Below are positions 24,401 to 64,000 of a stretch of DNA of 64,000 nucleotides, piece by piece. Positions within the stretch are counted from its first letter, which is position 1; every line of letters begins with the position of its first letter. Source of the DNA: Tribonema minus (lineage: Eukaryota > Sar > Xanthophyceae > Tribonematales > Tribonemataceae). The notes beneath the pieces were generated by a model that saw only the letters and a program-made list of their open reading frames with translations, did not search any database and was not told where the DNA came from. The stretch spans positions 1,116,001-1,180,000 of the forward strand of contig JAFCMP010000146.1 in the NCBI GenBank assembly GCA_017506865.1, written 5' to 3'. The translations under genes were made by a program, and so were the position numbers.

Positions 24401-25699
24401 CCCCCCCACCCCCCTCCTGACGCACAGCTCAAGCAGGCCAAGTACGAAGTGGAGCCGCGCATTGCGGGCGAGCTGGAAGAGGAGCTAGAGCGCGAGCGCG
24501 CGCGCAAGGCAGGCGGCAAGCGCGCAGCGTCCTACGAGATCATCAAGAACCGGGGTCTCACGCCGCACAAGTCCAAGCTCAACCGTAACCCGCGCGTCAA
24601 GAAGCGCGAGGCGTACCGCAAGGCGGTCATCCGCCGCAAGGGCCAAGTCCGCGAGGTACGCGCGTGTGTTCGCTATGTACACACGTGTGTATGCTATTTC
24701 TACATGTGTATGCTTTGAAGTATGCTATGTGTGCGCGATGCATGTGCGTCGAGAAGCGCGGGGCGTACCGCAAGGCAGTCATCCGCGGCAAGGGCCAAGT
24801 CCGCGAGGTATGCATGTATACTCTATGTGCACGCATGTATATAGGTGCTATTGGCGCACATGCATGTGCTTTTTATTTGTGTACGCCATCAGTATACAAT
24901 GTATGTATTTCCTCCAGGAGTACGCATATGCTGTCTACATACCGGTACATGTGCTTATTTGCCAGGGATAGGTATGCACATGCAAGGGCCCAGTCCGCGA
25001 GGCTAGCCTGCCCGAACGCCTCAATATGGCACCGCAAGGCCGGCGTCACAAGGCGGAGCTGCGCGAGGCGCGTGGCGGCTGAGTTTACGAAGTAGGTAGC
25101 TATTCACTACATGGCTGGCTGACCCTCTGCACAGCCATCAACTCTTCGACTCGAATGCTATGGGCCAAGTTCGTGACCTTTACACACACATGCGTGTGTG
25201 GGTGCGTGTGTGCGCGCGTGTGTGCGCGCGCGTGTGCGCGCGCGCGCGTAAAATCTGCATCTCTGTGATTTAAACCCTGCATCTCTGTGATTCAAACCCT
25301 GGATACTCAAATTGTTGGAGCGACTTTGAGAGCTCGACAATAATGGCAGCGGCGATGGCCGTGACAGGAACCCTACTTGGCCTAACCCTAACCCTTGGCC
25401 CGACCCTAACCCTTGTGTGTGTGTGCACGCGCGCGCGTGTAATACTGAGCACTGCTCAGTCCGCGAGGCAGATATTTACAGCAGAAGCACATACCTCTAT
25501 CATAACATATATGATGCTCAGCGCTCACCATCGTATGCTTGGCATACGCGATGCCAACTTCGCTTTTGCACCGTCACTCACCCCCCCCCTTCCCTCCTAA
25601 CCCTAACCCTAGGTGCGCACCAACGAGGCGGGGCGCTACGCAGGCGAAGGCACCGGCATTAGGTCCACCGTCACAAGAGGCCGCAAATTCGCCAGCTGA
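15492..25699 (+). CDS. UTP3: UTP3/SAS10, small-subunit processome protein, ten exons
   Basis: Exons: 15492-15751, 16246-16450, 17560-18042, 19021-19179, 19622-19843, 20668-20813, 22154-22272, 23160-23383, 24428-24655, 25613-25699. All have GT-AG borders and consistent phase, giving 710 residues. UTP3 works in the nucleolus in early 18S rRNA processing. The N-terminus is Lys/Ser/Asp/Glu-rich. The Utp3 core lies across exons 3-4 (GLVYLQ joined to VKRQLLLALATNTCFYMLLK, then SHPVMQRLLQLR). Acidic exons follow. The conserved SAS10 C-terminal domain is in exons 9-10 (about residues 625-710), with NRGLTPHKSKLNRNPRVKKR, VRRKGQ-like basic residues and the terminal YAGEGTGIRSTVTRGRKF. The last acceptor lies in a CCCTAA tract. 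Several introns carry decayed copies of exon edges. Confidence 0.9.
17120..17559 (+). repeat. UTP3 intron 2: tandem units of about 120 bases containing splice-acceptor-like ends
   Basis: Successive degenerate units each contain a TCATATACATACGTACC block, a GCTCAGACTCACAAACC block and a CG-rich run. The last unit ends at the functional CAG of exon 3 (17557-17559). Confidence 0.7.
18043..19020 (+). repeat. UTP3 intron 3 with a pseudo-copy of exon 4's start and microsatellites
   Basis: 18899-18945 repeats the first about 40 bases of exon 4 (19021 onward; GTGAAGCGGCAGCTG) and then diverges. The intron also has a TATATA-rich run (18050-18110) and three copies of a GAAACGAATCAAAAGATCGT motif (near 18117, 18188 and 18254). 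Confidence 0.75.
20560..20616 (+). repeat. Pseudo-copy of UTP3 exon 6 start in intron 5
   Basis: The CACGCAG boundary and following AACGCGACAAAAGCAGCAA repeat the acceptor and first bases of exon 6 at about 20658-20710, roughly 95 bases upstream. Confidence 0.75.
21549..21582. repeat. Interstitial telomere-like repeat (CCCTAA)
   Basis: Consecutive CCCTAA units with small variants, inside a UTP3 intron. Similar tracts occur near 22700-22722, 25380-25414, 49411-49455, 53618-53640 and 56054-56086. Confidence 0.8.
23462..23700 (+). repeat. Two pseudo-copies of UTP3 exon 8 end in intron 8
   Basis: The exon 8 donor region (CGACGAGAAACGCAAG then GTGAGATTGG at 23370-23393) recurs near 23476-23540 and 23590-23640, each with a GTGAGGTTGG donor and a following AGTTCAACTTTGTAG block. 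Confidence 0.75.
24737..25090 (+). repeat. Pseudo-copies of UTP3 exon 9 end in intron 9
   Basis: 24746-24812 repeats the last about 65 bases of exon 9, including the GCGAGGTA donor. Shorter, more decayed copies lie near 24985-25005 and 25021-25075. Confidence 0.75.
25580..25612 (+). other. Telomere-like tract forming the last UTP3 splice acceptor
   Basis: CCTAACCCTAACCCTAG directly precedes exon 10 at 25613. The tract supplies a CTAAC branch-point-like sequence and the terminal TAG. Confidence 0.7.
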
Positions 25700-38218: not shown

Positions 38219-40385
38219 GAAATGTGTGCATGCCCAAATGACTCCCACACTGTATGTCAGCGTTTGCAGTGCTCAGCAAATTTTGCAACTGCTGATGGCT
38301 GCAACAGAGCGCTGCATGTCTCTTCTGCAAGTGCTACGGGGGTGACAAGTATGTGGTTGACATCCATTGCAGCGAGGGCAGCAGTTGATCGCAGCAAATC
38401 ATATTCACGCTTGTTGCCTTCTTTCTGTGCATTATGAAGGGCCACTGGCATCACCATTACCACTGGCAGCCGTGGGCGTGGGCCCATTATCCTTTACTTC
38501 TGACGTGTGCCTTCAATCATACACACTGGTTTGCTCTCCGAAATGCACGTAAAAGTGATGCGCACGTGCACCCTAACACACCTCCACACGTCTCACAACA
38601 CAACAAAACATGAAGCAATACTGCACATATCCTTGCCGTGGCGCTCGTGAACACCCATACATACCCACACATGACTGAGCAAGCTGGCCTGTCTGGTGGT
38701 CAGACGCGCCAAGTGTGTAACCCAAAAGGTGCGGATGTGAAATTGAAGGAAATCTTCCCCTCTTGAAGTTGATAGGGGCATCATCAAGTGGCTGCGCCAT
38801 GCGGCACTGCTCTGGACTCCATAGCTGCGGCCATCAGCTGTCGGGCCTTGCTCGCAATCTCTTGCCTGCGGGATTATGACAGCACATAAAGCGCAAATAT
38901 CAGCCTATGAATCAACACAGAACAGACATGTCGACAATGAACTTGAAGCACAGTTCATTGAGAACTGAAAGCGTACTGGAGGGCTTTGACAAGCTCTGTA
39001 CCAGACCTACTGTACTGCACTAGGATATGGTGGCACTGCAGTGATGAGACATGGTTACCCAATTGTAGATGTGGGCCAACTGCGCAGTCAATATGCTGCA
39101 ATTGACCAGGTGCTCCTCCTTTAAAGGTGGTCACCACGATCAAATGTTGGCAGCCCTGGCATGCCTGCGCAATGCTACAGCAGACCTCACACAGCACCCT
39201 TGACCACGGAGCAGACCGAGGTCTGCATGATGTGGACCTGACACTGCACCCCCCCTGGACAGTGCATGCATGTGAGTTTGCCCCCACTGCACATGATGCA
39301 AGAACTGTGTCAGTGTGTCTGCTCATGCGATGCAGCAATGCTTTCGCTTGCATCTGCTCTGAATGTCACGATGTCCTGTTGGAGCACCTCATGGCATGGC
39401 CTGACATCAGCCAGAGCACTCTATTGCTGACACGAACGGGGCGCGCATTTTGGCCAGTACAATTAGGAACGGAGACGTACCTTGCAGTGTCCACAGCCGT
39501 GCAGTATGTGGCCTGGAAGCTCTGGCCGCTGCTGTTGACCTGCGACTGTGCATGGCAAGAGCGGCCAATGTGCTACGCGTCAGCCACAATCATGAGGGGC
39601 CAGAAATTTAGCACCATCGGTGATGCTTCCACCACACCGATGCATAACATGCGTGCTCGCCCACAAGTTATGCTGGCCTGGGAAACGGGTGTCGGATGAC
39701 TTCAGGACGCGAATGAGTATGATCAACAGCTGACGTCAAGTACAACGTGCGACCAGGGCCGCACGATACCTACGTACGAGTACGATCAACAGCTGCCGTC
39801 AATTACAACGTGCCACCAGGGCCGCACGATACCTGGTTGCACCAACGCTACAGACGAGATATAGATGTAATGACGTTTGAATACACCCCTAGAGGATTGC
39901 ACCACAAAGCCGTTGGCCGTGCCAAGGCTCAACGAGTGCCATTGCCAAAGAACGAGTGCCATCGAGTTCTCTGGCATCATTCAGACTTGCAAAGAGTTGA
40001 GGGGGTGCCAAGCTTTTTCAGGGTTGGCGTTAGTGCTGGCAAGGAAGCCAGTGACCCCCAGGAGCACTCTGCTGCATGTGCCAACCAACCATATGGCACC
40101 CATTTACTCAACTATAGACTAATCTGCTTGTGTGAAAACTGATGAGCATAAACACTATACACTGACCAGCACTCAGTATACATACCATACATACATACTT
40201 GAAGTTGCGCTGTACACACGACACTTCGCGCTGGCAGAAACACTCGCACGGCAACGCAGCATCCGCACCTTGTACGTTCGCGGCGAGTATACATACTTAT
40301 ACACATACTTGACGTTGCGCTGTACACATGTTACTCTGCGCCTTGCGCCGGCGGAAATAATTGCAACAGCGCAGCGCTTTCGCAC
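38219..40385. other. Intergenic with diverged flank repeat
   Basis: 38221-38425 is a diverged copy of the segment at about 26490-26700 on the other side of element 2. 39715-39840 holds two 63-base tandem copies containing GATCAACAGCTG and CAGGGCCGCACGATACCT. 40180-40385 holds a tandem copy of the end of the neighbouring minus-strand exon. A 190-residue plus frame at 39127-39699 has no recognisable features and is not called a gene. Confidence 0.55.
40180..40385 (-). repeat. Tandem copy of the exon end downstream of the Ser/Pro/Ala gene
   Basis: A unit of about 120 bases ending in CGCACCTTGTACGT (plus strand) occurs twice. It repeats the last exon bases and donor of the 40386-42587 exon. Confidence 0.75.
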
Positions 40386-42895: not shown

Positions 42896-45800
42896 ATGGC
42901 AACGCTGGGCAAGGATAAGCCCTCTGAGGCGCAGCTGGCGCAGGACTGGTACGCCACACTTGGAGTGACCAAGGATGCTACCGATGAGGCCATTCAGAAG
43001 TCCTATCGTAAGCTGGCGCTCAAGTGCCATCCGGACAAAAATCCTGACAAGCCGGAGGCCGCGGCTCTGTTCGACACTCTCACCAGGACGAAGGACTTTT
43101 TGCTGGACTCTGAAACACGAAGGTTAGCTCGCATTCTCATAGCATTAAGCCGATGATGCTGTCTTGATGACGTGAAATGTGTGTGCTTCGTACATTATTC
43201 CGTCGCAGGCTGCCTATGCAACCTCTAGGTTGCCTGCAACAGGAACGGCGGCGGCAGCAGCAGCATAGTAGAAATCAAAGCAGCAACAGCAGGGATAAGG
43301 TTCTTGCTGGTGCAACATCAACGACCGGGACTGCCGGTGGTTGCTGTCAATGATGATCGGTTGACCTCACGAAAGCACACTGCACTGTCCTCGGATGCTA
43401 CATCCGGGCCGCTGCGGCTGGTCTCAAAAGCGGGCATGATATCGGCACTCTTGCCATCGTCGCTCCGTATCACGCAATAATCACATGCAGCCACATGTAC
43501 TCCAGTACGTCAATTCAGCGTGCAGCCTGCACCTATGTCCCCCCCTCTCTCATGTTGCGCTCTGAGACGGCAGGCACCCGCCAAACTCCCATATGCCCCC
43601 CTTCGTTGACCGCCCATCTTTCAGACTGTTGCACCTGTGCAGTCGCTTCACCGCCATACTCACGCGCCGCTCACCATGCCCCCGTACCCCCTCCCCCCCC
43701 CCGCCCCTCCCCTCCTTCACCCCCATCGCTCAGAGAGTACGATGCGAAGCGGCAGGCGGCGGAAGCTCGTGCGCGCCTCAAGGAGCAGCGCGACAAGGGC
43801 ATGGGCGAGCGCCGCCGCCGCATGAAGGCGGAACTTGAGGCACGAGAGCGCAAGCTCGCGGCGGCAGCAGCAGCCCCTGGCGGCGCGCAGCGTGGCGGCA
43901 GCGGCGCAAAGTCCGTTCTGGACAGGCTGAAGGAGGAGGGGAGGGCGCGGCGGGAGGCGGCGGCGGCGGCGCAGGCGGCGCGCGATGCTGCGGCGGCGAG
44001 CAGTGGGGCGAGGAAGCGGCCGCGCAGCGAGGCGGGCGCGGAGCTGGAGGAGCGGCAGGTGCGTCACCTGCTGAAGATACGGGCAATTTTCTCAATCTCG
44101 CGAGGGTTTTCTAGGGGTATGATTTGTGTGAAAGCCGTGCAGTTAGCAGTGACGTGCAGCGCTGCGAGGAGGTCGCCTTGGAGCAAGGCCGTCGTGGAGC
44201 TCATGCAGCGGTGAGTCAACTGTTGGAGTTGCCTCTGCAGAGCCACCTGCACAGTCCAGTTTAGCAGCGAAGCGAGGAAGTTGTCACAGAACCGTAGGAA
44301 CGGGTGTCCTCCTGGTTTGAATAGTCTCATCCCCGTCATTTGAGCTGGTACAAAAGTGACGCGAGTCTCTGGCCGACACCCTCGCAAAGCTAGACGGGCG
44401 GCACGGTGCATCACTTGTTGAAGTTGTTGGTGATTGCCTGGTTAATGAAGCTGTGTTGTGCGGCAACTTGAACCGCCATGAAGCGAAAACAGAGCAATGC
44501 CATCGTGGCCTCTTTGGACTGTGAAGCAGGAGGTGCATGAAATACAGATTAGCATGCTTTTTGATTGGTCAAGATCTGCGCAGTTTGGTCAATGCGGGTT
44601 GATTCTTAAAAGGTACTGGTGCTTCAACCGGGTGCAGCATCAGCCAGAGGAGGGCCAAACGTGTTGCTTGAACGGCATGATGTGGCATCTCAGCTGCCAG
44701 TGACAGAGGGGTTTGCAGGACACCTGCACTCTTGTGCTCATGCCTGCGCTCTGCACTCGAACAAACGGCGGCATCGAAAGTATTGCAATTGACTCTTGTA
44801 AATGACTGGCCACAATGCGCTGGGCAAGGCGGTAGCAGCACCAGGCACGGCAGGCATCGGCCCTTGGCAGGGCGCTGCTCCTCATGCAGCACCATTCACC
44901 TGCGCGGCTGCGCCTGTCCGCGATACGCTGCTTGCAGCAGCATGTCCGTCAGCTGCACTGCGCGTCGTGTGATCACATACGGCGCCCTTCAGTTCCCTTG
45001 CCACGTGCCGCTTTGCTGGCGCGCATGCTGTGCTAAGCGGTCAGGCCGGCTGACTGCTGCAGTGCAACGGTTGCGCCGCCTATAACTGCTGTGGCTGCGG
45101 TATCTCGAGCGCTGAATTTCGACGCTACACCATCTGACATGGACGAATCTGGTTGTTGCAAATGCGCAGGTTCGCGTCAAGTGGTCGCGGCGACGCTGCA
45201 GCCACGGCGACGACACCCTGGCCGTACTGTTCGGCCGTTACGGCTCCGTAACCGCCGTCTCCCTCACGGGCACCAAGGGCAACTCGGCGCTCGTCACCTT
45301 CGCCACGCCCGAGGCTGCCTCCGCAGCAGCAGCGGCGCTCAGCAATGACGACACACTGCGCGCCACGCGCGTGCGCGGCGGCGACAGGGCCATCCCGTCG
45401 CACGACGCGGACGGCGACAGCGGCGGCGGCGGCGGCAGCGGCAGCGGCGGCGCGGAGCGCGGCTGCGTCGATCACAAGGACTACGAGAGCGTCGTGATGA
45501 TGCGCATGCGGCAGGCGGCGGAGCGGCAGCGGCTCATACGCGAGATGGAGCATAGGGAGGGGATCGCGCCGTCCGCTGGCGCCGCCGCTGCCGGGGATGC
45601 CACTGATGATGCTGCGCGGGCTGCGGTTGGCAGCGGCGGACGTGCCGCCGCAGCTGGCGAGGGTGGTGGCCATGGCGCAGCAGCAGCGGCGGCGGCAGCG
45701 CCAAGCCTGGATGAAGGCGACGTTTTGGCGAGAATGATGCGGGCAGCGGGCGCGCCACCCGCTGCTGCCGCTGCCGCTGCTGCTACCGTCGTTGATGGCG

Positions 45801-49449: not shown

Positions 49450-52400
49450 TTAGGCGGACGCGCTCGCCTTGAAGGCGGTGGTGAAGTCGTCGCAGATCTT
49501 GGAGAGGCGCTCCATCATGGGCTTGGTGAGCTCGTACTTGTCCTTCTTGATGCCCTCCAGGACCTCGTCCTTGTGCGCCGTCTTGATGTGCTCCAGCCAC
49601 GCCTTCTCGTACGCCTGGACCTGTGAGGTGCAGCAAGTTCAATTCCCAGAAGAAGAAGTTACAAGTTGTGCACGGAACGTCAGAACATGCGTGCCAGGGT
49701 TTGCAGCTGAACCTGAGATGCAGAAAATTCAATTGCCAGAAGAACTTCAACTTGACGCACGCGGAACGTCAGAACGCGCGAGCCAGTTGACGCCTGGACC
49801 TGCGATGCAGCGAGTTCAATTGCCAGGAGAAGCAGCGAGGTCGATTGCCACAAGAATGTGACGCACGCGAATAGTCAGAACACGCATGCCAGGGTACGCG
49901 TGGACCTGAGGTGCAGCGACTTGAATGGCCAGAAATTGTCAGAACTTCAGGTTGATGTGCGCAGATCGTCAAAACACGTGCGCAAGCACGCTGCAGCGAA
50001 CCAAGCAGAAGGGGCCATAATTAATGCGTGCATGTGCTGCGATGGAGAAACTGTCAGAGGTCACGCGTCATGCGCGTATGTATGCTTTCCCAAACGCCTG
50101 GACCTGAGGTTCCATGAATTGACGACTGCACAGCGTTACAACACCTGCCATTACACTCTGATGAACAGAGTGTCGGTGCATAGTGCTTCATGCGTTCTTG
50201 CTTGCGCCAGCACGTGCTGCTGAGCAATGCAACATGGAGAGGTACTTGCTGGCGAGGTTGCGCTCGTGGCGCAACGTGACGGTGAACCATGTTGACAGCA
50301 GCTAAAAGGGTGGTCATATGGTTATGCGTATCACCCATTGTCACCGTCACAACACGGGGGGCACATGATACAGATGCTGACCTGACAAACCGCGCTCTTG
50401 TGCTCACTACCACAAAGTGAAAACTGGGCATGCATTCCGTTTGGTTTGAAAGATCACAAATAAGGGTGGTGAGGGATTATAGAGTTGTGAGGCTGACCTG
50501 GTTGACGGCAATCTTGTCGACGAAGCCCTTGACGCCCGCAAAGAGGATCACCACCTGGTCCTCCACCTCCATGGGCTGGTACTGATTCTGCTTGAGCAGC
50601 TCGTACAGGCGCACGCCACGGTTCAACTGCAACACCAACAACAAGCAACAACATCAAAGTTCAGACACTATCTCAACAGGTGGGGCGGCCCTACGGAATA
50701 GTGCTATCTGCTGCTGAGAATTGCTGCTGCTGCTGCTGCTGCTGATGTACTGGTTCTGCTTGAGCAGCTCGTACAGGCGCACGCCGCAGTTCAACTGCAA
50801 CACAGACAACACACAATGACATCAACGTCAAGAAACTTCTTTCAATCCACTGGTTCGTCACAAACAGGTGAGGCGGTTGGGCCGTGCGCCATTCCGCACA
50901 GACCCTACGAAATGGTGCTGCACGCTGCTGAGAATTGCTGCTGGTGCTGATGCACTGATTCTGCCTGAGCAGCTCGTACAGGCGCACGACGCGGTTCAAC
51001 TGCAAAAACGAGGACAGCCAATGGCATATAACACTGTCAAGACACTCTCTTAACAGGTCAGGTGGCCCTGCGGAACAGTGCCGTATGCTGCTGAGAATGT
51101 AAGTGCTGCTGATGTACCGGTCGTGCTTGAGCAGCTCGTACAGGCGTACATAACGGCTCACTTGCAACATTGTGAGAACATGCAACAGCATACGTCAATG
51201 TCGAGACACTCTACGTAGGCTCACAAGGGACATTTGTGGCAACGAGAAGTCAAGTACTTCTAATCACATTTTGCAAAGCGACCGCGATCACTTGCTGTTG
51301 CGCTCGTGGCACTTCTGCCTGCAAGCTGCCGGGCACATGCTGAGCATCATCAGCGATGCCGCCCACAGGCAAATGACAGCGTCAGGATCAGTATGCGTGC
51401 AGTGCAGTTGCACACCAATGGGAGGCATGGGGCATGCTTCACTGCATGATTTGAATGAAACCTAGGTCTGCTTCACTGCATGACTTGAATAGAAATCTAG
51501 GTCTTCACTGCACGACTTGAACGAAACCCAGGTCGAAACCCAGGTCTGGCCCAGCCAACCCTAAGCATGGTTTTTGTGGCTCCGCTAAAGACTGCTGCAG
51601 GACCATGAAGAACATCCATGTATCAGACCTCGCTGTGTGCCCATTATTCAATGTATATTACTCTTGGTAAACACATGCTTGCTGTTGAGTGGTGATTGGA
51701 ACAGGCATTGCCTTATAATATGAACTGTAATCCGCATTCGAAAGCACCAATGCTTGGAAACTCGCAAGTGTTAGTTGGTACTGAAAAGTGGTACATACGT
51801 ACATACACCTATCCACCATGACCTGCTGCTGGGTGGCGGCGTCGTGCCGAACTTGGCAAAGGCTGCCTCCTACTGTAACTAATTCTATGCAAAACTTCAA
51901 GTGATACATACATACACACATACCTGCTGCTGGGTGGCGGCGTCCAGGTCGGAGCCGAACTTGGCAAAGGCGGCGACCTCACGGTACTGCGCGAGCTCCA
52001 GCTTCATGGTGCCGGCCACCTGCTTCATGCACTTGCGCTGGGCAGCGGAGCCCACACGCGACACGCTCAGACCCACGGAGATGGCAGGGCGCTGGCCCTG
52101 TGAACATGGAAAGGGGGGGGGGAGGGGGGGGGGCAGGCAATGTCACTCGTACATATAATGACAAGGAGCATGCTGTGTGAAGTTCACGGCCACAGCATTA
52201 ACAGGCATACCAAAACTTTGTAGACAATGGCAGAGCAGTGGCGTACTGTATATCTGCGGACTTCAGTGCCGCCTGCACCAAATGAAGTAACTATGATGAG
52301 CTCATCTGCAGGAAAATCTGGCGACTGGTGATGGCAGCAGGAATGGCGGGTGTCAGCCCTGACGCAACAGTCACATGCCTTGGAAACTACCACGACATTC

Positions 52401-55400
52401 GAAGGCGTCAGTTCACTCGATTGGCAGGCTAGTCTGGTGGCCAAACCCTGTCAGAAGCGCTCCGACTCCAGCAAGATCTGGCCGCTGGTGATGAAGATGA
52501 CATTGCGGACGTACGCAGGGGCAGAGTCTGCGGACATATAACGACTCTGCCTTGTACACACCCTCACACACGACTGGCTTTGGCTTCTGCAGGGAATGCG
52601 CAAACGCGCACCTGGCAGAAAAGCTACTACTCCAGACAGATCCGGCCGTCAAAGGACAATGTTGGTAGATATACGCCGCAGAGCACGACATCTCCGCTTC
52701 GACGATACCCTCACAAAACCAAGCTCTGCTTTGGCACGGACAGCGCGAATAACACTGCTGAACTGCGCGCCAATAGATCCCTGGTAGAAGAGCTCCGACT
52801 CCAGTAAGATCTGGCCGTAAGTGATGGAGATGACATGGGTAGGTCTGTACAGAGGCAGGCACGCCGAAGAGCGCAGCGACTGTGCTTTGCTGACACCCTC
52901 GCACAATTGAGCTCTGCTTCTGCATGGACTGCGCATGTGACACCACGGGACCGCGTGCCAGAAATAAATACCTGGTACAAGAGCTCCGACTCCAAGAAGG
53001 TGTGGCCGTCGGTGATGGACATTGGTGGGGATGTAAACGAACACGTTGCGTAGTGCAACAAACCTACTGTAAGAACCCTCACACCACTAGCAGGAGATGC
53101 GTACCTGGTAGAAGAGCTCAGACTCCAGGAAGATCTGGCCGTCAGTGATGGAGATGACGTTGGTGGGGATGTACGCAGACACATCACCGGCCTGGGTCTC
53201 AATGATGGGGAGCGCAGTGAGGGAGCCGTTGCCCATGGCCGCACCCATCTTGGCAGAGCGCTCGAGAAGGCGCGAGTGGAGGTAGAACACGTCACCGGGG
53301 TAGGCCTAAAGTGTGAGGGGGTGGGGGGTGCGGGGGGGTAGGGGACGGTGAGCAAGTACAGAGAGTAGGCGTACAGAGAGTAGGCGCAGAGAGCAGAAAG
53401 AGGTTTTAGGCCTGGGGTGCAGGGGTGCGGGGGGGGGGGCAGTGACTTGAGGGCTAGGTGCACTGCATCTTGGTGAACAGTGTATGAACATGTGCGGCAG
53501 TAACCAAGGTCTGCGAAAGAGCTGTTGCCCATAGCAGCGCCCATCTTTGCGGAGCGCTAGAGAAGGCATGAGTGGAGGTAGATCACGTCACCGAGTAGGT
53601 CTAGGGTTTGCAGGCGGAGGGTTAGGGTTGTAGGGTTAGGTGACGGTGAGCAGGTACTTAGAGTACACTAAGCAAGGTTTAAAGACCTAACAGATTGAAC
53701 TTAACAGAATCGACAACATTCGCAAATGTGATTGACAACTGACTTCAACAAAGGAGGTCGCGTGCGGTGACGCACCGCGTGGCCAGGCGGGCGCCCGAGC
53801 AGCAGCGACAACTGGCGGTGAACAACAATGAATGGCGCAATTGCAGTTGCCATGCAACTTCTCGCCAACCACCTGCAAGAGGACTGCATCAGGATGGGGC
53901 CAGCAACTTCAACGGCGCTACAACTCAATGCCACAATAAAGACAACACGCACCTCGCGGCCGGGCGGGCGCCGCAGCAGCAGCGACATCTGGCGGTGCGC
54001 GACGGCCTGCTTGGACAGGCGCACTACAGACAAGTACTTTCAAGTGCAGCTCGACGATACTCGCAGACGTGACTGATGGCCGACTTCGACAGAGGAAGTT
54101 GCGAGCGGTGACGCACCTCACGGGCGGGCGGGCGCCGCAGCAGCAGTGACATCTGGCGGTACGCGACGGCCCTGGTTGAACAAAAAACAGAAGACGACCT
54201 GCTCGCCTATCACCGCCGCCGACGCGCAACGCAAATGCGGCAACCTCAACATTCAACCCACGCACCTCACGGCCGGGGGGGCGCCGCAGCAGCAGCGACA
54301 TCTGGCGGTACGCGACGGCCTGCTTCGACAGGTCGTCGTAGAAGATGACGGCGTGCTTGCCGTTGTCGCGGAAGTACTCGCCGATGGCGGCGCCCGTGTA
54401 TGGGGCCAGGAACTGCAGGGGGGCGGCGTCGGATGCCGTCGCCGCGACGACGCACGTGTGCCCCATGGCCTTGGCGTCGGTGAGCGAGCCCACGAGCTGC
54501 GCGATGGTGGAGCGCTTCTGGCCGACGCCCACGTAGATGCAGTACAGGAGGTCGTCGCCTGCATGCACGCGCGCGCATGGGGGGGTAGGTGCGTGTTGTC
54601 ATTTGCGGAAGTGCTTTGGAACATGTACTGCGAAGTATTGAAAACGAGAAAAAAAGCAATGGTGGAGCGCTTCTGGACCACGCCGACGTAGATGCAGTAC
54701 AGGAGGGCGTCCCCTGCGTGGGTGTGCGCGCATGGGGGGGGGGGGGGGAACATGCCGTCATTTGAAGTGTTTTGTAGTCTAACATGAATCAAGAGCGAGA
54801 AGAAAAGTATCAATGGTTGCGGATAGGGTTAGGCCGGCAGAGAGGCACTGATCCCTCCGACCGGCTGACGCGCTGGGCAATTCATGCCAGCCGCACAACG
54901 CCAAAATATCTCCATAGAACACACTACGGTTTCGGGCGCAGCACTCATCCTTGATGCCGGTTCATGGTGTCAATGGCGATGGCCGCCTTTCCTGTCTGAT
55001 GATCACCAATGAGTTGAAGTTGAAGTTGTGCTGACCGTAGCCGGTAAAACACAACATCTTTGTAAATGTGTGTGTGTGTGTGAAACACCTACTTTTTACC
55101 CCTCTGTGACTCGTTTGAGTATTGCCCATGATTGGCTGAACTCTGACACTACTCTTGCACTCACCGTTGGTCTCCTGCTTGACGATGGTCTCAATCCACC
55201 GGCTGTTTTACCCATCAGACAACCACCAATGATCGCCCTGCCACGGCCCATGCAACTTCAACTACCATCAGTAAGAAGTAAACACTTCGCAGCAGCTACA
55301 GGATGGAAACGCCATAATTCCCTACGCACTCACCCTTGGTCTTCTAATTGATGATGGTGTCAATGGCAATCGCCGTCTTGCCCGTCTGACGGTCACCAAT

Positions 55401-58400
55401 GACGAGCTCACGCTGGCCGCGGCCAATGCAACTTCAACTACCATCAGTGCTCAGCGGACGCGCTCTGCAGCAGGTACAGGATACACGCACCCCGGAACAC
55501 CCTCGGCACTCACCCTTGGTCTTCTGGTTGATGATGGTGTCGATGGCAATCGCCGTCTTGCCCGTCTGCCTGTCGCCGATGATGAGCTCACGCTGGCCGC
55601 GGCCAATGGGGATGAGCGCATCCACGGCCTTCAGGCCCGTCTGCATGGGCTCGTGCACAGACTTGCGCGGGATGATGCCGGGGGCCTTGACCTCGCAACG
55701 CGAGCGCAGCTTGGAGTTGATGGGGCCGGCACCATCGATGGGCTCGCCTGACATTGCCAACATCATCAAGGGTGAATACGGTTGAATTGCATGCCAGAAT
55801 CGAGAGTCATGAAATTGTAGCAGCAGGTTATGTGTGGCGCACGAATGCGGTGCACAGCAACAGCATATGTAAAGAGGGATGATGCCGGGGGCCTTGACCT
55901 CGCAACGCGAGCGCAGCCTCGAGTTGATGGGGCCCGCACCATCGATGGGCTCGCCTGGTCGTAAGACATAGCCACAAGTCCAGGGGGAAGTTAGACTATA
56001 TTCATGTACGCGCACAAGAAGACACTGACAGCGGCGCGTCACGAGGCATGGGGCTAACCCTAACCCTAGCCCTAACCCTAACCCCAAGCCTTGACCTCGC
56101 AACGCGAGCGCGCCTTGGAGTTGTTGGGGCCGGCGCCATCGATGGGCTCGCCTGAAATTGCCAAAGTTTGGAGAAATGAAAATGAATCAAAAGATCGCAT
56201 GTTGAGCAACAGGCCATGTGTGGCGCATGAAAGCGGTGTGCAGCAGCAACATGTGTAGTGAGGGATGATGCCGGGGGCCTTGACCTCGCAACGCGAGCGC
56301 AGCTTGGAGTTGATAGGGCCCGCACCATCGATGGGTTCGCCTGACGTTGTCACAAGTTCAGAGTACAGTTAGACCAGATTTGTGTATGCGCGCATCACAC
56401 CGACAGCAGCATGGTGTCTCGAGGCATGAACCATGATGCCACTCTGGTCAACCTTGCAACGCGAGCGCAGCTTGGAGTTGAAGGGGCCCGCACCGTCAAT
56501 GAGCTCGCCTGCCCTACGTTCAGGGTAATGTTGCAGCAATTTCATACGTCCGCGCATCACAACGGCCACACAAAGAAGCATCATGTGCTCATGTACAGAT
56601 GATGCTGGGGGCCCCAGTCCAGCTGCAAGCGCGCAGCTTGAAGCTTGAAGTTGAATGGGCCTGCGCCGTCCTATGGGCTCACCTGAACGTGAATGAACCG
56701 CATTGCCATGAATTGCAGTTGCCTGCGTCTACAATGCAGTAACCAAGCGCTTCACGGAGCGTACTTCAAGCAAACTTCAACTGTGACTCACCGAGGCCAT
56801 CCACGACCCTGCCGAGCAGCTCTGGGCCCACGGGAACGTCCACGATAGCGCCCGTACGCTTGACCGTGTCGCCCTCAAGGATCTCACGGTCATCGCCAAA
56901 GATCACAACACCAACGTTGGACTCCTCCAGGTTGAGGGCCATGCCTGTTGGCGAACGTAATGCTTACGGGTTAGATTTTTGTGATGAATGATTCGTGGCG
57001 AATGCAATCGGCAGCCTCGCAAGTCTCAGAGAGTTTGAATCTATGAGCTTCCATGATGTCATGCTCATTGTTGAAGATCACGACACCGACGTTGGACTCC
57101 GCCAGGTTGAGCGCCATGCCTGATGGCAGACGTAATGGCTCACGGTTAGCTGTATGCGTTCATATGCGTTACATGGCGAGTACATTCGGTCTTCCTACAA
57201 GTCTCATAACGTCAGCAGACAGTTTGAATTTTTAAGCTTCCATGATGTCATGGTCATTGTCAAAGATGATCACGACACCGGCGTTGGATCTCCTCCAGGT
57301 TGACAGCCATGCCTGATGGCAGACATGATGTTATGCTGACGAGTTTGAGTTTATAGACAAGAATGTGTTACGGCGACTGCATTTGAAGTCATGCAAGTCG
57401 CAGAGCGTCAACAGCGGGCTTGACAGGTTGAGATTTCAGGACCTTGCGGTCGACAACACTGACGTTGGACTGCTCCAAGCTGAGGGCCATGCCTGATGGC
57501 AAACGTAATGCTCACGGGTTAGATGTAGTCTATGTTCACTCCAATCCTCTCGCCTGCAAGAATGCGAAACAGCGCTCGGTGCGCGGCAACGCATCCCACT
57601 CAGATGGCAATGACTTCCAAAAAACTCATCGGAAATGAGCTTCTCAAACCTTCCTTATACAGGTTGAGTTGTATCAGGCGTCAGCGCTCATCGCGGAGTC
57701 CGCACGCAGACACGGTCATCTCTCTATTCTTGCCCTTTCTTGTGGACGTACACGCAAGAGGCCGTACACAAGCGCAATGCTGTACCCGACGCCAATGATC
57801 ATCACTCCCAAAACACTCCTATTAGAGGGCTTCTTAAACCTCACTAGAGGGGTTTTGTGTCAGTGCTCACCACCAAGTCCGCACGCGAACACAATCATCT
57901 TTCCGCCCTGCACGTTGTTGAGGCTGTAGACACGCGCACTGCTGCCGCACTCTCAACACATTCCTGATAAATGGCTTCTCGAACCCTTTCACTAAAATCT
58001 TTGTAACACATGTCAGTGCTCACCGCGGAGTCCGCACGCAAAGACTATCATCTCGCCGGCCTGCACGTTGTTGAGGCCGTAGACGCGCGCAATGCCGTCA
58101 CCCACGCTGATGACCTTGCCGACCTCGTTGTACTCCGCAGCGGACGTCTTGGTGGCCGCGGCGCCGGAGATGCGCTTCTCCAGGTACGAGGACAGCTCGA
58201 TGGTGGTGCTCGACATGCGCGCCTGCTGCGCGATGGCCTGTCAAGTTCAAGTGTTCATTGACAGGGCAAGGTTCAAGTGTTCATTCATTCATGAGAGAAT
58301 TGAAGGTGAAATGATTGAAATGGTGCCTGGAGATGCGCTTCTCCGGGTATGATGACAGCTCGATGGTGGTGCTCGACATGCGCGCCTGCTGCGCGATGGC

Positions 58401-60314
58401 CTGCCCAAATTCATGAGAAGAATTCATTCATGAATGAGTGGATCGGAGGATGGAATGATTGAAGTTGGTACCGGAGATGCGCTTCTCCAGGTACGACGAC
58501 AGCTCGATGGTCGTGCTCGACATGCGCACCTGCTGCGCGATGGCCTGTCACGTTGCAAGACGTTAATTCATGAGTGAATTAAAGAGTGGAATGATTGACA
58601 TTGGGGCCAAAGATGCGCTTCTCCTAAAAGCGAGGGCAGCTCGGTAATGGCGTTCGATATGCGCGCCTGCTGCGCGTTGGCCTGCGCCATTCGCACATGC
58701 GTTCATAGGTGCATGAATTCACGAATGTGTGAATGTATCGCCGCAACCGCAGAATTCCCTTCAGGGAATGTGAGGAGAGCTCGATGGTGGTGGTGATTTA
58801 CATGCGCACTTGCTGCGCAAATGCCTGCGGCGCATATGAATGGCTTCCATAAGGCGGTAAATTCATCATGGGCGCATGGCAAACTTGAAGTACTGCTTGT
58901 CTGGTGTGCGGACGCAACTGCTGACGACCAATGCCTCAGCTCCGCTCTGACGGTGTGTGGCAAGGTGGCCAGACGAATGCAAACAGTCACACACGTCAGC
59001 AGCAGTGATAACGATGCACATGACGCCTGCGCTGCTGCAGAGGTCAGGTATATCAGGCGTGCTGCAGCAGCGCTCAGGGCAGCAGCGTTCAACTCTGCCA
59101 GGTGGCCCACTCTGGCGGAAAGCCGCTGCACTGCAGGGCATGAAATGGCTACATAGTAGAGTGAAAGGGGGGCGGCTTCACGCCTCCCTGCTCAGCTCGG
59201 TCGACTGCAGCAGCGCTCGGCATGCAGCTGCACGTCTCAGTGCTCAGGTCCAGTAACTGCAGCGCGCAGCGCATGGATGAATTTGCCAATTTGCTGCAGC
59301 GCTGCTCCGCACAATGCAGCGGCAGCAGCCGCATTACATCAGATTGCCATGCTGAGTACGGGGGGGGACAGCTGAGTGATGCCCAGCACACCTAACCCTA
59401 GCTCTACATGTAGTGAACTGTATTCGTACACCGTGGCCGCATGGCAGAAAGTCCATCAAGCAAATCGGATCCTCTATGACAACAGTGAAGATTCCCAGGC
59501 TTGTTTGAAATTGATAGGCTGGAGAGAGCAGGAGACCCCAAACACATGACTCTGTTCGGGTTGTTTGAGGCTGCAAAGATTAAAAGACTAGACCGCTATC
59601 GCCTTCTGAAGTAGTTGATTAAAAAAGGAGCTCTGCCATCAGTCACTGAGCATTCGCCAGCTTCAAAATCTCTTGAGGCTTTGACTTGAGGTCGACGAGC
59701 ACATCTAAGGTCGAGGTGCAGACTTCGCCTTTCGGGTGCTGCAGTTCATGTAATCCATTGTGAGCAATTGAGCAACACTACATACTTAATTGTCAAATAA
59801 ATTGAATGGCAGCAATAATGCGGCATCTGCCAGACCAAAGATGCACAGCTGCATCCGCAAGGCCTGAAAATGCATTACATACTGCTATGTACGAAGTTTT
59901 TGCACTAAAAGAATTAATCAACGGCTGAGATCACAAGGAACAGCAACTGCAAAGCCATTGTTGCCGAACCAGACTAACACGCGTTCCTGCGGCTACGCCA
60001 GCCGCAGCCCAAACCTCTGAGCTGGCTACACCAACTGTGGCAGTCAAGCGCTGTGAGATCCGAAGTGCTGGCGGCCACACACACGCAGCAGTTGCACAGG
60101 CAATGCTGCAACATTGGTTGCAATGCCTGCCCCTCCTGCGCAAGTTGCTGCCTACTCTCCTGCGGGTGTCATGGCTGTCTGAAGCTTTGTGTCGTGTGCG
60201 TGTGTGATGGTGAGGATAACATACCTTGGTGGCGGTCGCCCTGGGGACAGCCTTCGAGGCAATCGCCGTCAGCTGACGCAAGCTCTGTCGGGCGGCATTG
60301 GCAAGGAGCACCAT
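49450..60314 (-). CDS. ATP1: Mitochondrial ATP synthase F1 alpha subunit, nine exons
   Basis: Exons in coding order: 60314-60225, 58237-58024, 56944-56792, 55747-55514, 54558-54266, 53305-53105, 52097-51924, 50626-50498, 49620-49450. All have GT-AG borders and matching phase, giving 552 residues, a normal length. Exon 1 encodes a mitochondrial presequence ([20 protein letters not shown]); an upstream in-frame ATG at 60353 is an alternative start. Walker A GDRQTGKT is near residues 210-217. IYDD-type [20 protein letters not shown] and the arginine-finger segment [12 protein letters not shown] are intact. The protein forms F1 hexamers with beta in the matrix and supports ATP synthesis. Every intron carries decayed copies of neighbouring exon edges. 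The stop TAA lies in a telomere-like tract. Confidence 0.96.
49780..50130 (-). repeat. ATP1 intron 8: copies of the exon 9 acceptor edge
   Basis: The exon 9 boundary (plus sense TACGCCTGGACCTGTGAGGTGCAG, 49611-49634) recurs near 49790, 49898 and 50092, with nearby AGTTCAATTGCCAG-like blocks. Confidence 0.75.
50751..51170 (-). repeat. ATP1 intron 7: copies of the exon 8 start
   Basis: The first about 50 bases of exon 8 and its acceptor (plus sense TTGAGCAGCTCGTACAGGCG) recur near 50755-50803, 50958-51003 and 51116-51165. A copy of the exon 7 end lies at 51822-51862. Confidence 0.85.
52436..53040 (-). repeat. ATP1 intron 6: copies of the exon 6 end
   Basis: The last about 70 bases of exon 6 with its donor (plus sense AGAAGAGCTCAGACTCCAGG) recur near 52976-53030, 52785-52840, 52610-52680 and 52440-52505, each more decayed with distance. 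Confidence 0.8.
53510..54170 (-). repeat. ATP1 intron 5: copies of the exon 5 end and exon 6 start
   Basis: The exon 5 donor edge (plus sense GGCGCCGCAGCAGCAGCGAC) recurs near 53762, 53945 and 54110. The exon 6 acceptor edge recurs at 53510-53605, followed by telomere-like TTAGGG units. Confidence 0.85.
54658..55450 (-). repeat. ATP1 intron 4: copies of the exon 5 start and exon 4 end
   Basis: 54658-54722 copies the exon 5 acceptor edge. The exon 4 donor edge (plus sense CTTGGTCTTCTGGTTGATGA) recurs near 55335-55428 and 55155-55255, with a weaker copy at 54962-55015. Two copies end at the same CCAATGCAACTTCAACTACC junction. Confidence 0.85.
55879..56690 (-). repeat. ATP1 intron 3: five copies of the exon 4 start
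   Basis: The first about 70 bases of exon 4 with its acceptor (plus sense GCCTTGACCTCGCAACGCGA) recur near 55889, 56089, 56277, 56450 and, very decayed, 56603-56683. A CCCTAA tract abuts the 56089 copy. Confidence 0.9.
57060..57945 (-). repeat. ATP1 intron 2: copies of both flanking exon edges
   Basis: The exon 3 start with acceptor (plus sense GGTTGAGGGCCATGCCTG) recurs near 57091, 57290 and 57465. The exon 2 end with donor recurs near 57676-57735 and 57857-57945. Confidence 0.85.
58310..58830 (-). repeat. ATP1 intron 1: four copies of the exon 2 start
   Basis: The exon 2 acceptor edge (plus sense ATGCGCGCCTGCTGCGCGAT then GGCCTG) recurs near 58325-58403, 58470-58548, 58610-58684 and, decayed, 58748-58830. 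Confidence 0.9.
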
Positions 60315-60526: not shown

Positions 60527-63500
60527 ATGGGGAGGCTGGCGATGGTGCTTGCTCTGGCGGCGTGTGTACGTGGGGGCAGGGCTTTGGTGATACATGCCCT
60601 GCCAGGCCAGGCCGACCCTGCTTATGAGCTGCATTGGCACGTGCCTGCTGCCTTCGGCTCGGACGTCAGGGTAGACAAGGAGAGGCTGGTGAGCATAAAA
60701 AAATTCGCAACGTGTCACATCACCGTGCTTCTGTTGCGTTGCTGTAGTAGTGTGTGATGGCGTCGCCTTCGGAGCATACGCTGCCTACATGCATCACATG
60801 TGGCGCACACTTGATTTCATCCCGCTAATCAGTGCTGCCAGCTGCCGGGCAGGCGTGACGCAATTCTGCTCTGCTGTATATTTGACTGATTATAGGCCCA
60901 CCAGTGCTTCGGAGGTAGAGCAGCTATGTTGGATCTTCTTAAGCGTTGCACGTTTTAGTTCTCTTTCGCTTCGCCTGCTGTGCCGAATCCTACTGATATG
61001 GTGGTCAAAACCGAGAACAGCATGTAAACGCTGGCTCTTTCACGCCTTCGCGTACTGTGTGCGCTGTAAATCAGCTATTCAAACTCCTCTGTGATCAGGG
61101 CGCCGGCACATTGCCGGCACCTTTGTCTGCCAAGAGGGCAGGAGGATACCACCACAGTTGAAGATGACGGGCAGGGGGCATCCCCATGTTGAAGTTCGCA
61201 GTTGCTGCTGCAGTTGATCCTGTTGTAGAAGGGCTAGCATGTCGTGTGCGACACACTCAAACCACAACAAAGTCGGCAGATCAGAATCGAGCCGCTGGCG
61301 CACGGTGCACAAAGCATTGCTCAGCAGCAGCAACAGCTGACAGATGATCACAATTTGTCGTGTGTTTGGCGTGCAGTGAGAATCTTCGCCGCGTGGCACC
61401 AGTAGACTGGCGATCATATCCAGGGTTATACTTCGAAACCGGCGCACTTCAATGTACACCTGCGGTTTGTGTACATGGCACACTGTCATGTCCTTCGATC
61501 TCTTGTCTCTACAAATGCAGACAGGTTGCATGCTCTGCACACTCTACTTCTTGCGTGCTGCAAGCGTAGGTATAGCACGCGGATCTGTTGGGTCGTTTGT
61601 GGCGGTACCCGCGGGAACTTCCTGCACCTGACCAACTCAAGTGCTCTAAAGCACTTCAACCAGTGACGCACCTCCAATCCAAAACTGCACTTGCCGTCAC
61701 GGGGCACGCTGGCGAGCAATACGCACAAGTCGGAATGAAGTTGTACGCACTTCAACCTGCGACGCACCTCCAATAGACACTTCCCTGTCACACAGATTAT
61801 GGCGAATGCGGCAGACGCGTGCACGCCGCTGCACAATGCGCACACGCTGGTTTGAAGTTGTACGCACTTCAACCAGTGAGTCAGTGACGCACCTTCGGTA
61901 CACACTATTCCCTGTCACACAGATCCTGGCGAGCACTACGGACGTGTGCGCGCCGCTGAGCAATGCGCACAAGCTGGTTTTGAAGTCGTAGACACTTCAA
62001 TCAGTGACACACCTCAAATTCAATATCCTTCGCATCGCAGATCCTGGCGAGCCCGGCGGATGCGTGCACACCGCTGAGCAATGCGCACAAGCTGGCCGGC
62101 AACGTGGCGCTCGTCACGCGCGGCGGCTGCAACTTTACGGAAAAGGTGCTGCAGGCGCAGCGCTGCGGCGCCAAGGCGGTCATCGTCGGGGACACGTCCA
62201 ACGACGCTGACTGGTGAGCACCCACACGCAATGATGCAACTTCAACTTGAGCATGAAAATCAAGGCTAACGTTAACCACATGGCGTCTACCTCACACCCC
62301 GAGCACGAGCATTGTCGTGTTTGCCGTGTGGCATGAGAAAGTCCCTGCGCCAAGGCGGTCATCGTCGGGGACACGTCCAACGAGGCTGACTGGTAAGCAG
62401 TGCTACACACGCTAACACACAAGAGCACAACCTTAATTTGAGCACAAACTTCAAGTTGTACTTGTGTGCCGACCTCACCCCGAGCGCGGGCATGTTCATG
62501 TTTGAATTGTGATGATGGAAGGTCTCGGTGCCAAGGCGTTGATGGGCGGTGATACGTCCACCAACGCTGAGAGATGAGCACCCCGCACACCACAATCATG
62601 CAACTTCACTTCAATCTTCGAGTTCAAGGGCGCTTCACACATGCACCAGTCAAGGCTAGGACAACAACCAGTCACTTTTCCATCACCAAGTCAATCTCAT
62701 CGGCGCGTCCCATACCGCAAACTTCGCCTGTGACCCCCCCCGCTGCGCCCCCCGTCTCCCTCCCCTCAGGGCTGTCATCATGTCTGGCTCCGCCGCCGAA
62801 ACCGCCCCCATCACCATCCCCGCCGTCTTCGTCAGCGCGCCCACCGCCGCGCTGCTGCGCGACCTGCTGCGCGAGGAGGCGCATCTCGCGCGCCGCGCTG
62901 CGCTGCGCCGCGCCCCCGCCGCCGCCGCCGCCGCCGCGCACACCGTCCTGGACCACGTCGCGGGCGCGGCGGTGCTCGTCGCCGGCGCCCCCGTCTTCGC
63001 CATCACGTGGGCGCTGCCGCCGCCGCCGCTGCCGTTCCTGATGCGCAGCGGCTGGGGGGGGTGCGCGCGCCGCCGTGACGCCGCCCCCGCCGCCAGGACG
63101 AAAATCGAGGCCGCGCTCGATGCCGTCGCCGGCCGCATCCCGTGCGCGCTCTCGTCCACTTTCGGCGCCTGCTTCGAGCTCGCCGTCGGAGCGCGCGGCG
63201 TCGTCGACGCGGCGTCGGACGCGCTGCGCGACCCCGCGGAATCGCTCAACGCCGCAGGCGCGCACGTGCGCCACGCCATCGTCGACGGCCTGACCACGCT
63301 GCTGCCCGCCACGCCCGATCCCGCGGACGCTGCCGCCGCGAAACGCGCCGCCGCCGCCGCCGCGCCGCGCCCCACCGCCGGCGCGCTGCTGCGTGACGCT
63401 GCGGCGTCCATCCGCGCCGCCGCAGCGCACGCGCGGCGCGCCGTCGCCTGCCCCCTGGCCACGGTGCTGCCCGCCGAGACCGACCCCGAGGTCGCCGCCG

Positions 63501-64000
63501 CCGCGCCGCGCCCCACCGCCGGCGCGCTGCTGCGTGACGCTGCGGCGTCCATCCGCGCCGCCGCAGCGCACGCGCGGCGCGCCGTCGCCCGCCCCCTGGC
63601 CGCGGTGCTGCCCGCCAAGACCGACCCCGAGGTCGCCGCCGCCGCCGCCGCGCGCCGCGCCGCCGGCGCCGCCGGCGCGCCGCCCCCCGCCGCCGCCGCC
63701 GCCGCGCGCTTCGCCGCCGCCGCGGCGCGCGCCGCGCTGCCGCACGTGTCCGTCTCCATCGACGCGCGCGGCGCCGTGCTGCCGGCGGCGGCGCGCGACA
63801 GCGGCGGCGCCTTTGTGTTCCGCGGCGGCGGCGCGCTGTCGCCGCTGGGCGCCGCCGTGCTGTACGCCATCGCGTCGCTGGCGCTGCTGGCGGCGACGAG
63901 CGCGGGGGCGGCGGCGGTGGCGCGCGCCGCGGGGGCGCGCGCGCGCGGCGGCAGCGCGACTGCGCGGTGGGGCGGCTGGCGACGCGGCGCTTTTCGAGCG
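60527..64000 (+). CDS. PA-domain membrane or secreted protein, incomplete at right edge
   Basis: Exons 60527-60688, 62041-62213 and 62770 to beyond 64000 join in phase. The first 19 residues (MGRLAMVLALAACVRGGRA) are a signal peptide. Exon 2 holds most of a protease-associated (PA) domain: CTPLSNAHKLAGNVALVTRG, GCNFTEKVLQAQ and GAKAVIVGDTS. Exon 3 completes it (ITIPAVFVSAPTAALL). After it come Ala-rich helices, two 47-residue tandem repeats (63361-63642) and a hydrophobic stretch (LYAIASLALLAATSAGAAAV) that is a likely membrane segment. PA domains occur in vacuolar sorting receptors, membrane RING ligases and proteases; which one applies cannot be told because the C-terminus is missing. An extra exon between exons 1 and 2 is possible. 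Confidence 0.75.
61690..61990 (+). repeat. PA-domain gene intron 1: copies of the exon 2 start
   Basis: The exon 2 acceptor edge (CAGATCCTGGCGAG and GAGCAATGCGCACAAGCTGG) recurs near 61918-61980 and 61793-61850, with a weaker copy near 61700-61735. Each is followed by GAAGTTGTACGCACTTCAACC or a variant. Confidence 0.85.
62340..62580 (+). repeat. PA-domain gene intron 2: copies of the exon 2 end
   Basis: The exon 2 donor edge (CAAGGCGGTCATCGTCGGGG to GCTGACTGGTGAGC) recurs nearly intact at 62350-62397 with GTAAGC, and decayed at 62530-62580. Confidence 0.88.
63361..63642 (+). repeat. In-frame 141-base coding tandem duplication
   Basis: Two copies, 63361-63501 and 63502-63642, differ at only a few bases. 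Each encodes 47 residues including TAGALLRDAAASIRAAAAHA. Confidence 0.85.

Follow-up and report, generated by a model that had tools for sequence, protein, structure and literature searches.

The window, a stretch of 64,000 nucleotides of the Tribonema minus genome (G000:C146:1116001-1180000), belongs to an assembly of 158 Mb in 554 contigs. Spliced alignment to the MMETSP transcript P0002 and to the gene itself placed ATP1, the gene for the mitochondrial ATP synthase alpha subunit, with its ATG at window position 60314 and the end of its final sense codon at 49453. The gene model comprises nine exons and eight introns, all of the GT-AG type, and encodes an open 552-aa protein with three ATP synthase alpha/beta domains (PF02874, PF00006 and PF00306). 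Among the matches listed, the best 120 of at least 7999, the nearest named full-length proteins were brown-algal, which points to a probable ochrophyte alga; the identity was 82-84% to Scytosiphon and Ectocarpus and 89% to P0002. The top row among these matches was a Toxocara canis entry with 71% identity over 81% of the query.

The ATP1 introns were searched with whole exons as queries (E<1e-3). This resulted in 31 exon-edge copies with identities of 75-96%, at least one in every intron and 4, 6, 4, 4, 4, 4, 4 and 1 in introns 1 to 8, respectively. The gene, its introns and the copies are located as follows:

49453 to 60314, reverse strand: ATP1, mitochondrial ATP synthase alpha subunit
58238 to 60224, reverse strand: intron 1 (1987 bp), with four acceptor-edge copies at 58329-58413, 58471-58559, 58603-58684 and 58772-58827 (93, 94, 80 and 79% identical)
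56945 to 58023, reverse strand: intron 2 (1079 bp), 82% of it covered by arrays, with donor copies at 57858-57942, 57758-57798 (ending 49 bases before the edge) and 57669-57755, and acceptor copies at 57055-57149, 57244-57352 and 57453-57524
55748 to 56791, reverse strand: intron 3 (1044 bp), with acceptor copies at 55876-55957, 56088-56164, 56262-56352 and 56451-56511, which fall in repeat families D1 and D2
56058 to 56084, no strand assigned: interstitial telomere-type repeat (CCCTAACCC), adjoining the truncated exon-side end of copy 56088-56164
54559 to 55513, reverse strand: intron 4 (955 bp), with donor copies at 55289-55428, 55157-55195 and 54941-54998 and an acceptor copy at 54656-54774
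53306 to 54265, reverse strand: intron 5 (960 bp), with donor copies at 54111-54171, 53946-54019 and 53770-53819 and an acceptor copy at 53519-53663
52098 to 53104, reverse strand: intron 6 (1007 bp), with donor copies at 52969-53035, 52780-52850, 52606-52651 and 52447-52518
50627 to 51923, reverse strand: intron 7 (1297 bp), with a donor copy at 51800-51866 and acceptor copies at 50747-50837, 50954-51058 and 51124-51210
49621 to 50497, reverse strand: intron 8 (877 bp), with acceptor-edge copies, e.g. 49894-49934, and repeat family D11 at 49707-49937

The copies resemble either the final part of the preceding exon or the first part of the following one and nearly always include the splice junction. 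Acceptor-edge copies alone are present in introns 1, 3 and 8 and donor-edge copies alone in intron 6, while introns 2, 4, 5 and 7 contain both. The initial annotation had described copies of acceptor edges, donor edges or both in all eight introns, and this description was confirmed with intron 8 as a marginal case: its one match includes ∼12 exonic bases, and no match was obtained there with an exon-only query or in a profile search. All seven positions quoted as examples fell on a copy or at most 4 bases away from one (55889 corresponds to copy 55876-55957, 56089 to 56088-56164, 56277 to 56262-56352, 58325 to 58329-58413, 58470 to 58471-58559, 52785 to 52780-52850 and 50755 to 50747-50837). 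The range given, one to five per intron, has to be extended to one to six on account of intron 2. When the alignment of the intron 3 array was read by eye the spacers seemed to be of two alternating types, as if a dimer had been duplicated as a unit.

The alignment procedure used for ATP1 was extended to a second ATP1 gene (C101), VMA2 (C224), ATP2 (C68), a gamma-tubulin-like gene (C124), another tubulin-like gene (C201) and beta-tubulin (C142), so that seven gene models, each on its own contig, were available including ATP1 (C146). When only the exon served as query (E<1e-3), copies were present in 28/39 introns and at 35/78 exon edges, and 11/39 introns contained none. Six of the 39 introns come from divergent tubulin models (TUBx and TUBy) with less certain boundaries, and two of the TUBx donors are GC. 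Besides the first ATP1 gene (ATP1_A), five of the six models contained copies; the exception was beta-tubulin, for which the exon-edge search found no copies in three introns of 234-288 bp. A sharing of the pattern with other genes, proposed earlier as a test, was thus observed. Introns with copies had a median length of 960 bp compared to 552 bp for those without (p=0.006), the number of copies increased with intron length (rho 0.59), and the arrays covered 32% of the total intron bp and 52% in the ATP1 gene of the window. Most of the longer introns studied contain rows of decaying exon-edge copies, which suggests a stepwise lengthening by small, tolerated local duplications. The earlier view that local duplication across junctions recurs and lengthens introns is supported by both the other affected genes and the greater length of the introns with copies.

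Three additional exon edges with copies were located in the window:

24594 to 24817, forward strand: SAS10/UTP3 gene (PF09368), donor edge 24594-24658 copied at 24746-24810
23361 to 23688, forward strand: probable upstream SAS10 exon, assigned to the gene by position only, donor edge (...CGCAAG/GTGAG) copied at 23596-23632
62168 to 62399, forward strand: PA-domain gene (PF02225), donor edge 62168-62220 copied at 62347-62399

The window also contains an open frame with an RRM (PF00076) at 45206-45523, a weak PPR-like open frame below the Pfam cut-off at 12769-13155, a longer tandem array with a period of ∼207 bp at 6009-6772, and a tandem array of ∼141-165 bp within a Gly/Arg-rich open frame at 63176-63739. 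The RuBisCO large subunit was represented among the assembly matches by two short matches only, each with one stop (C334:714136-714324 and C112:516888-517037; loci L032 and L033), and a full-length rbcL was not among them.

At the settings of the local repeat search the window contained 58 direct and no inverted local repeats, and three Markov-resampled windows contained 0, 0 and 0. Exon edges compared with the introns of other genes gave 1 match in 195, and reverse-complemented edges matched in 1 of 39 introns. The direct orientation of the repeats, the empty Markov windows and these two edge controls argue that the copies are not due to chance. Edges compared with the non-adjacent introns of the same gene gave no matches, a count that comes without a denominator. 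At 13 random loci there were 44 direct and 2 inverted local repeats, and a separate tile analysis of window positions 1-49000 gave 34 direct and 2 inverted ones. A search with profiles, intended to reach older copies, extended the exon-edge result only slightly (29 vs. 28 introns; 88 copies in 29/39 introns); its controls gave one match in 78 edge searches of reversed introns and 0/78 in the introns of other genes.

Tandem arrays are typically prone to assembly error, and introners, which are likewise intron-associated repeats, are known in the stramenopile Aureococcus (PMC7789003). Either an assembly artefact or an introner-like mobile element is nevertheless a scarcely credible source of these copies. 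They diverge from one another by substitutions, their spacers are private, and the pattern is present on six contigs, all of which argues against an artefact. Introners as described in the cited account form families across many introns, often with inverted repeats, whereas the copies described here are specific to the individual edge, with the single match in 195 elsewhere, and no inverted repeat of at least 40 bp was found in 32 masked introns.

The anatomy of the repeated unit was analyzed with exon queries trimmed to 110 bases, which were used for the splice-site, spacer, period, decay and junction-placement statistics; the copy and spacer statistics rest on the first 32 introns and the final copy count on 39. 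Copies were spaced at a median of 161 bp (interquartile range 133-180), with 90% of 58 values within 100-215 bp, and 58 of the 67 copies found by their body extended to at most 12 nt from the edge. The intron spacer was homologous in 21/28 pairs of exon and first copy and in 17/30 pairs of adjacent copies (z>2.5), and the homology in the first-copy pairs identifies the unit as a tandem duplication that spans the junction. In the remaining 7/28 first-copy arrays the spacer was not recognisably homologous, and the exon-like part was still 79-97% identical. A version of the spacer test with looser gap costs hardly separated spacers from shuffles (z>3 in 5/58 exon-copy and 0/46 copy-copy pairs); it is nearly blind and was superseded by the z>2.5 version. 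With regard to decay, the nearest copy was more similar to the exon than the farthest in 15/17 arrays (p=0.002; Spearman -0.36), while copies of rank 1 and rank 2 showed no difference in similarity (0.902 vs. 0.904). The decay with distance reported at first therefore holds as a trend across the arrays of all genes, and does not extend to the first two ranks.

A single tandem duplication followed by simple neutral decay was considered and found insufficient, with the spacers unrecognisable in 7/28 arrays. Between adjacent copies the exon-like parts were more alike than the spacers (0.85 vs. 0.68). Repeated duplication from a frozen exon, together with the choice of copies by their similarity to the exon, explains part of this gap, perhaps not all of it. 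It would also be produced by gene conversion from the exon to the copy or by templated insertion of exon edges, in which case the exon-like similarity would be independent of the spacer. Exon-like parts of 95-96% identity do lie beside unrelated spacers in introns 3 and 5 of ATP1_A and in intron 8 of the second ATP1 gene (ATP1_B), and the intron 3 copies at -207 and -593 are 96% identical to the exon, compared with 94% for the copy at -404, which appears from the repeat pattern to be the younger one. However, the homologous spacers in 21/28 first-copy pairs argue against this, and recurrent duplication off a frozen exon already predicts a slower apparent decay of the exon-like part. We therefore regard conversion or templated insertion as possible, but unlikely.

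The second ATP1 gene (G000:C101:818752-828545; loci L009 and L010) is apparently intact and has a different presequence. The two paralogues have an identical nine-exon structure and differ by a dN of 0.005 and a dS of 0.23 (exons 2-9). Their introns align piecewise only: the best alignment was that of intron 4 (78% over 356 bp), those of introns 2 and 8 covered 246 bp (68%) and 31 bp, respectively, and no alignment was obtained for intron 3. ATP1_B has its own exon-edge copies, and its arrays differ from those of ATP1_A. The acceptor arrays of introns 3 and 7 are present only in ATP1_A (for intron 3, four copies vs. none in ATP1_B), and ATP1_B alone has a donor array in intron 8 (two copies vs. 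none in ATP1_A). These differences indicate that duplication continued after the paralogues split, in agreement with the ongoing process proposed in the initial annotation. Some duplications may predate the split, since the donor copies of intron 4 have an outer limit of -94 that is common to both paralogues, which suggests that both genes share one founding event there. Alignment of four arrays between the paralogues for orthologous dating gave no clean grouping.

The copies could also have a function in the definition or regulation of long introns, as decoys or as alternative or recursive splice sites. A GT or AG was found at the expected place in 44/58 copies, and longer introns have more of them. 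The retention of these sites is nevertheless what the identity of the copy body predicts (GT kept in 24/34 vs. 26.3 expected, AG in 20/24 vs. 19.5), the lengths that would be inserted if copies were used show no frame preference (24, 23 and 21 for the three remainders modulo 3), and the arrays of the paralogues differ despite near-identical mature ATP1 proteins. Selection on the splice sites of the copies and their in-frame use were accordingly rejected as far as sequence can tell. As the splice sites are kept no better than the copy body, the suggestion that the copies leave many potential alternative splice sites was not supported with regard to their use, and a function of this kind appears very improbable.

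The position of the junction within the unit was determined in 17 well-preserved first copies (at least 88% identity). It lay at 0.40 ± 0.09 of the unit (Kolmogorov-Smirnov test vs. uniform, p=1.8e-5), with an exonic reach of 25-95 bp and an intronic part of 46-128 bp. Even with whole-exon queries of up to 492 bp, the maximum exonic content of any copy was 95 bases. Random placement would yield more units with long exon parts, and either selection or steered breaks would fit this result. In addition, 102/121 local repeat pairs in the 32 introns touched exon-like sequence; the remaining 19 were labelled intron-only, of which 13 lie in two gamma-tubulin-like introns, and most are at edges by their coordinates. 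These three observations favor a duplication that is targeted to the junction, with breaks that a positioned nucleosome, a co-transcriptional R-loop or splicing-linked nicking would place at ∼60 bp from the border on the exon side and at ∼90 bp on the intron side. Under such targeting by chromatin or splicing, the introns of this lineage would be built largely from their own exon edges. The same placement could, however, result from selection against decoys that are large or near the junction. After masking of the exon-like parts, 34 repeat pairs fell in edge zones totalling 22.3 kb and 3 in interiors totalling 8.2 kb, a difference of limited weight for targeting as the zones were drawn from the copies themselves and most pairs come from few arrays.

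A border other than an exon-intron junction was duplicated in ATP2, where a copy of 71 bp with 94% identity extends across the stop codon and into the 3'UTR (L037:1444-1522 and 1613-1691). Splicing is therefore not required for the duplication, and the process is not bound to exon-intron junctions as had been supposed. Among the true 3' CDS ends 1/4 had a copy (ATP2; none in ATP1_A, ATP1_B and TUBB), a count that leaves out a VMA2 row labelled CDS end, which is a donor edge with copies. The 5' CDS starts of the two ATP1 genes had none (0/2). With the ATP2 border duplicated in the same way, targeting of the junction is rather doubtful.

Direct repeats were also found away from exon edges. With exon-like parts masked, 11/32 introns had a local direct repeat compared to 22/130 random 1-kb tiles; on the contig of the window itself the values were 4/20 for flanking tiles and 13/49 for tiles of window positions 1-49000. 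The 130 random tiles had no inverted repeats. As masked introns and random tiles still show direct repeats, the process extends beyond exon edges. The emphasis on exon edges is in part a matter of ascertainment, with selection keeping the exon template readable: a duplication at an exon edge is more visible because the exon is fixed and one side decays, whereas a purely intronic one decays on both sides.

Tandem units matching over their whole period made up 12/94 pairs, with identities of at least 87% and periods of 57-181 bp. Nine of the 12 had periods of 57-91 bp, shorter than those of the exon-edge arrays, and in nine the alignment length minus the period was -10 to +5 bp; the unit with period 181 corresponds to the intron 4 array of ATP1_B. 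Young tandem duplications that were complete, 89-99% identical and of 57-86 bp in period were observed at L034:3912-4081, L028:2617-2747, L010:8529-8657, L021:6014-6141, L014:3116-3226 and window 39715-39834. The head-to-tail form, the small number of inverted copies and the 12 whole-period units would fit a repair of staggered breaks.

TTAGGG-type 9-mers were found 55 times in 298 kb, with ∼0.7 expected, in both orientations and in 9/39 introns. Telomere-type repeats (GGGTTAGGG or CCCTAACCC) were located in the window at 17139, 21553-21571, 22706, 25386-25601, 53619 and 56058-56076, and at loci L025, L026, L027 and L031. In one instance such a repeat lies directly beside a truncated exon-edge copy. 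The telomere-type insertions are a hint of break repair and no proof of it.

Taken together, we consider it probable, at roughly 70%, that intron lengthening is due to small tandem duplications that recur across the border of coding exon and intron with a median period of 161 bp. In a first step, evident from the anatomy of most arrays, a segment with ∼25-95 exonic and 46-128 intronic bp is duplicated head to tail. The exon-proximal splice site would then stay in use and the protein remain unchanged, as the intact gene models suggest, and the second exon edge would become intron; continued function of the original site would make the duplications tolerable. The surplus copy subsequently decays, as the observed trend shows, and further rounds, perhaps sometimes of dimers, could build arrays of up to five copies. 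Exon edges would be conspicuous since selection freezes the exon template, while purely intronic duplications would decay in both copies. The likely molecular cause, by analogy with known repair reactions, would be end joining of staggered breaks with fill-in; the many short TTAGGG-type insertions in the genome may be a second mark of break repair, and later copies may arise by unequal exchange between existing units.

Related duplications have been described in other organisms. In the RdRp gene of potato, a tandem genomic duplication across an intron-exon boundary made a new intron (Ma et al. 2016, PMC4974935). That event resembles the present ones in being a direct tandem duplication over a boundary, including the 3' splice site and the beginning of the exon, so that splicing signals are inherited. 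It is described as one event by which an intron was gained, whereas here existing introns grow, in arrays of up to five copies, at donor as well as acceptor edges and in 28/39 introns. Growth instead of gain follows from the nine exons that both ATP1 paralogues retain. The same paper cites the models of Rogers (1989) and Hellsten et al. (2011). For new introns of Daphnia pulex, the account in PMC4202315 ascribes internal direct repeats to staggered double-strand breaks and describes a passive increase in length, with internal repeats in 61.1% of new vs. 16.2% of established introns and exon-end repeats of 4-12 bp. The intronic direct repeats and a length ratchet through break repair are common to both systems; unlike those of Daphnia, the repeats reported here have periods of ∼160 bp, the units span the junction and the introns are common to both paralogues. 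In mammalian cells with induced breaks, CST-Pol alpha-primase is reported to generate small tandem duplications by fill-in of break ends and end joining (PMC8355091). These are head to tail as well, and CST is also a telomere complex; the involvement of such enzymes in Tribonema is suggested by analogy. Among open-licence papers we found no genome-wide report of exon-edge arrays.

The lengthening of introns is usually invisible because intron sequence decays. In the present case the conserved adjacent exon serves as a ruler, and single growth events can therefore be counted, put in order and sized in the majority of the tested introns. Gene predictors should be aware that these introns contain many plausible false donors and acceptors. 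Intron lengthening by tandem duplication thereby becomes directly testable with respect to its rate, the size of the unit, the break sites and the cost of the decoys.
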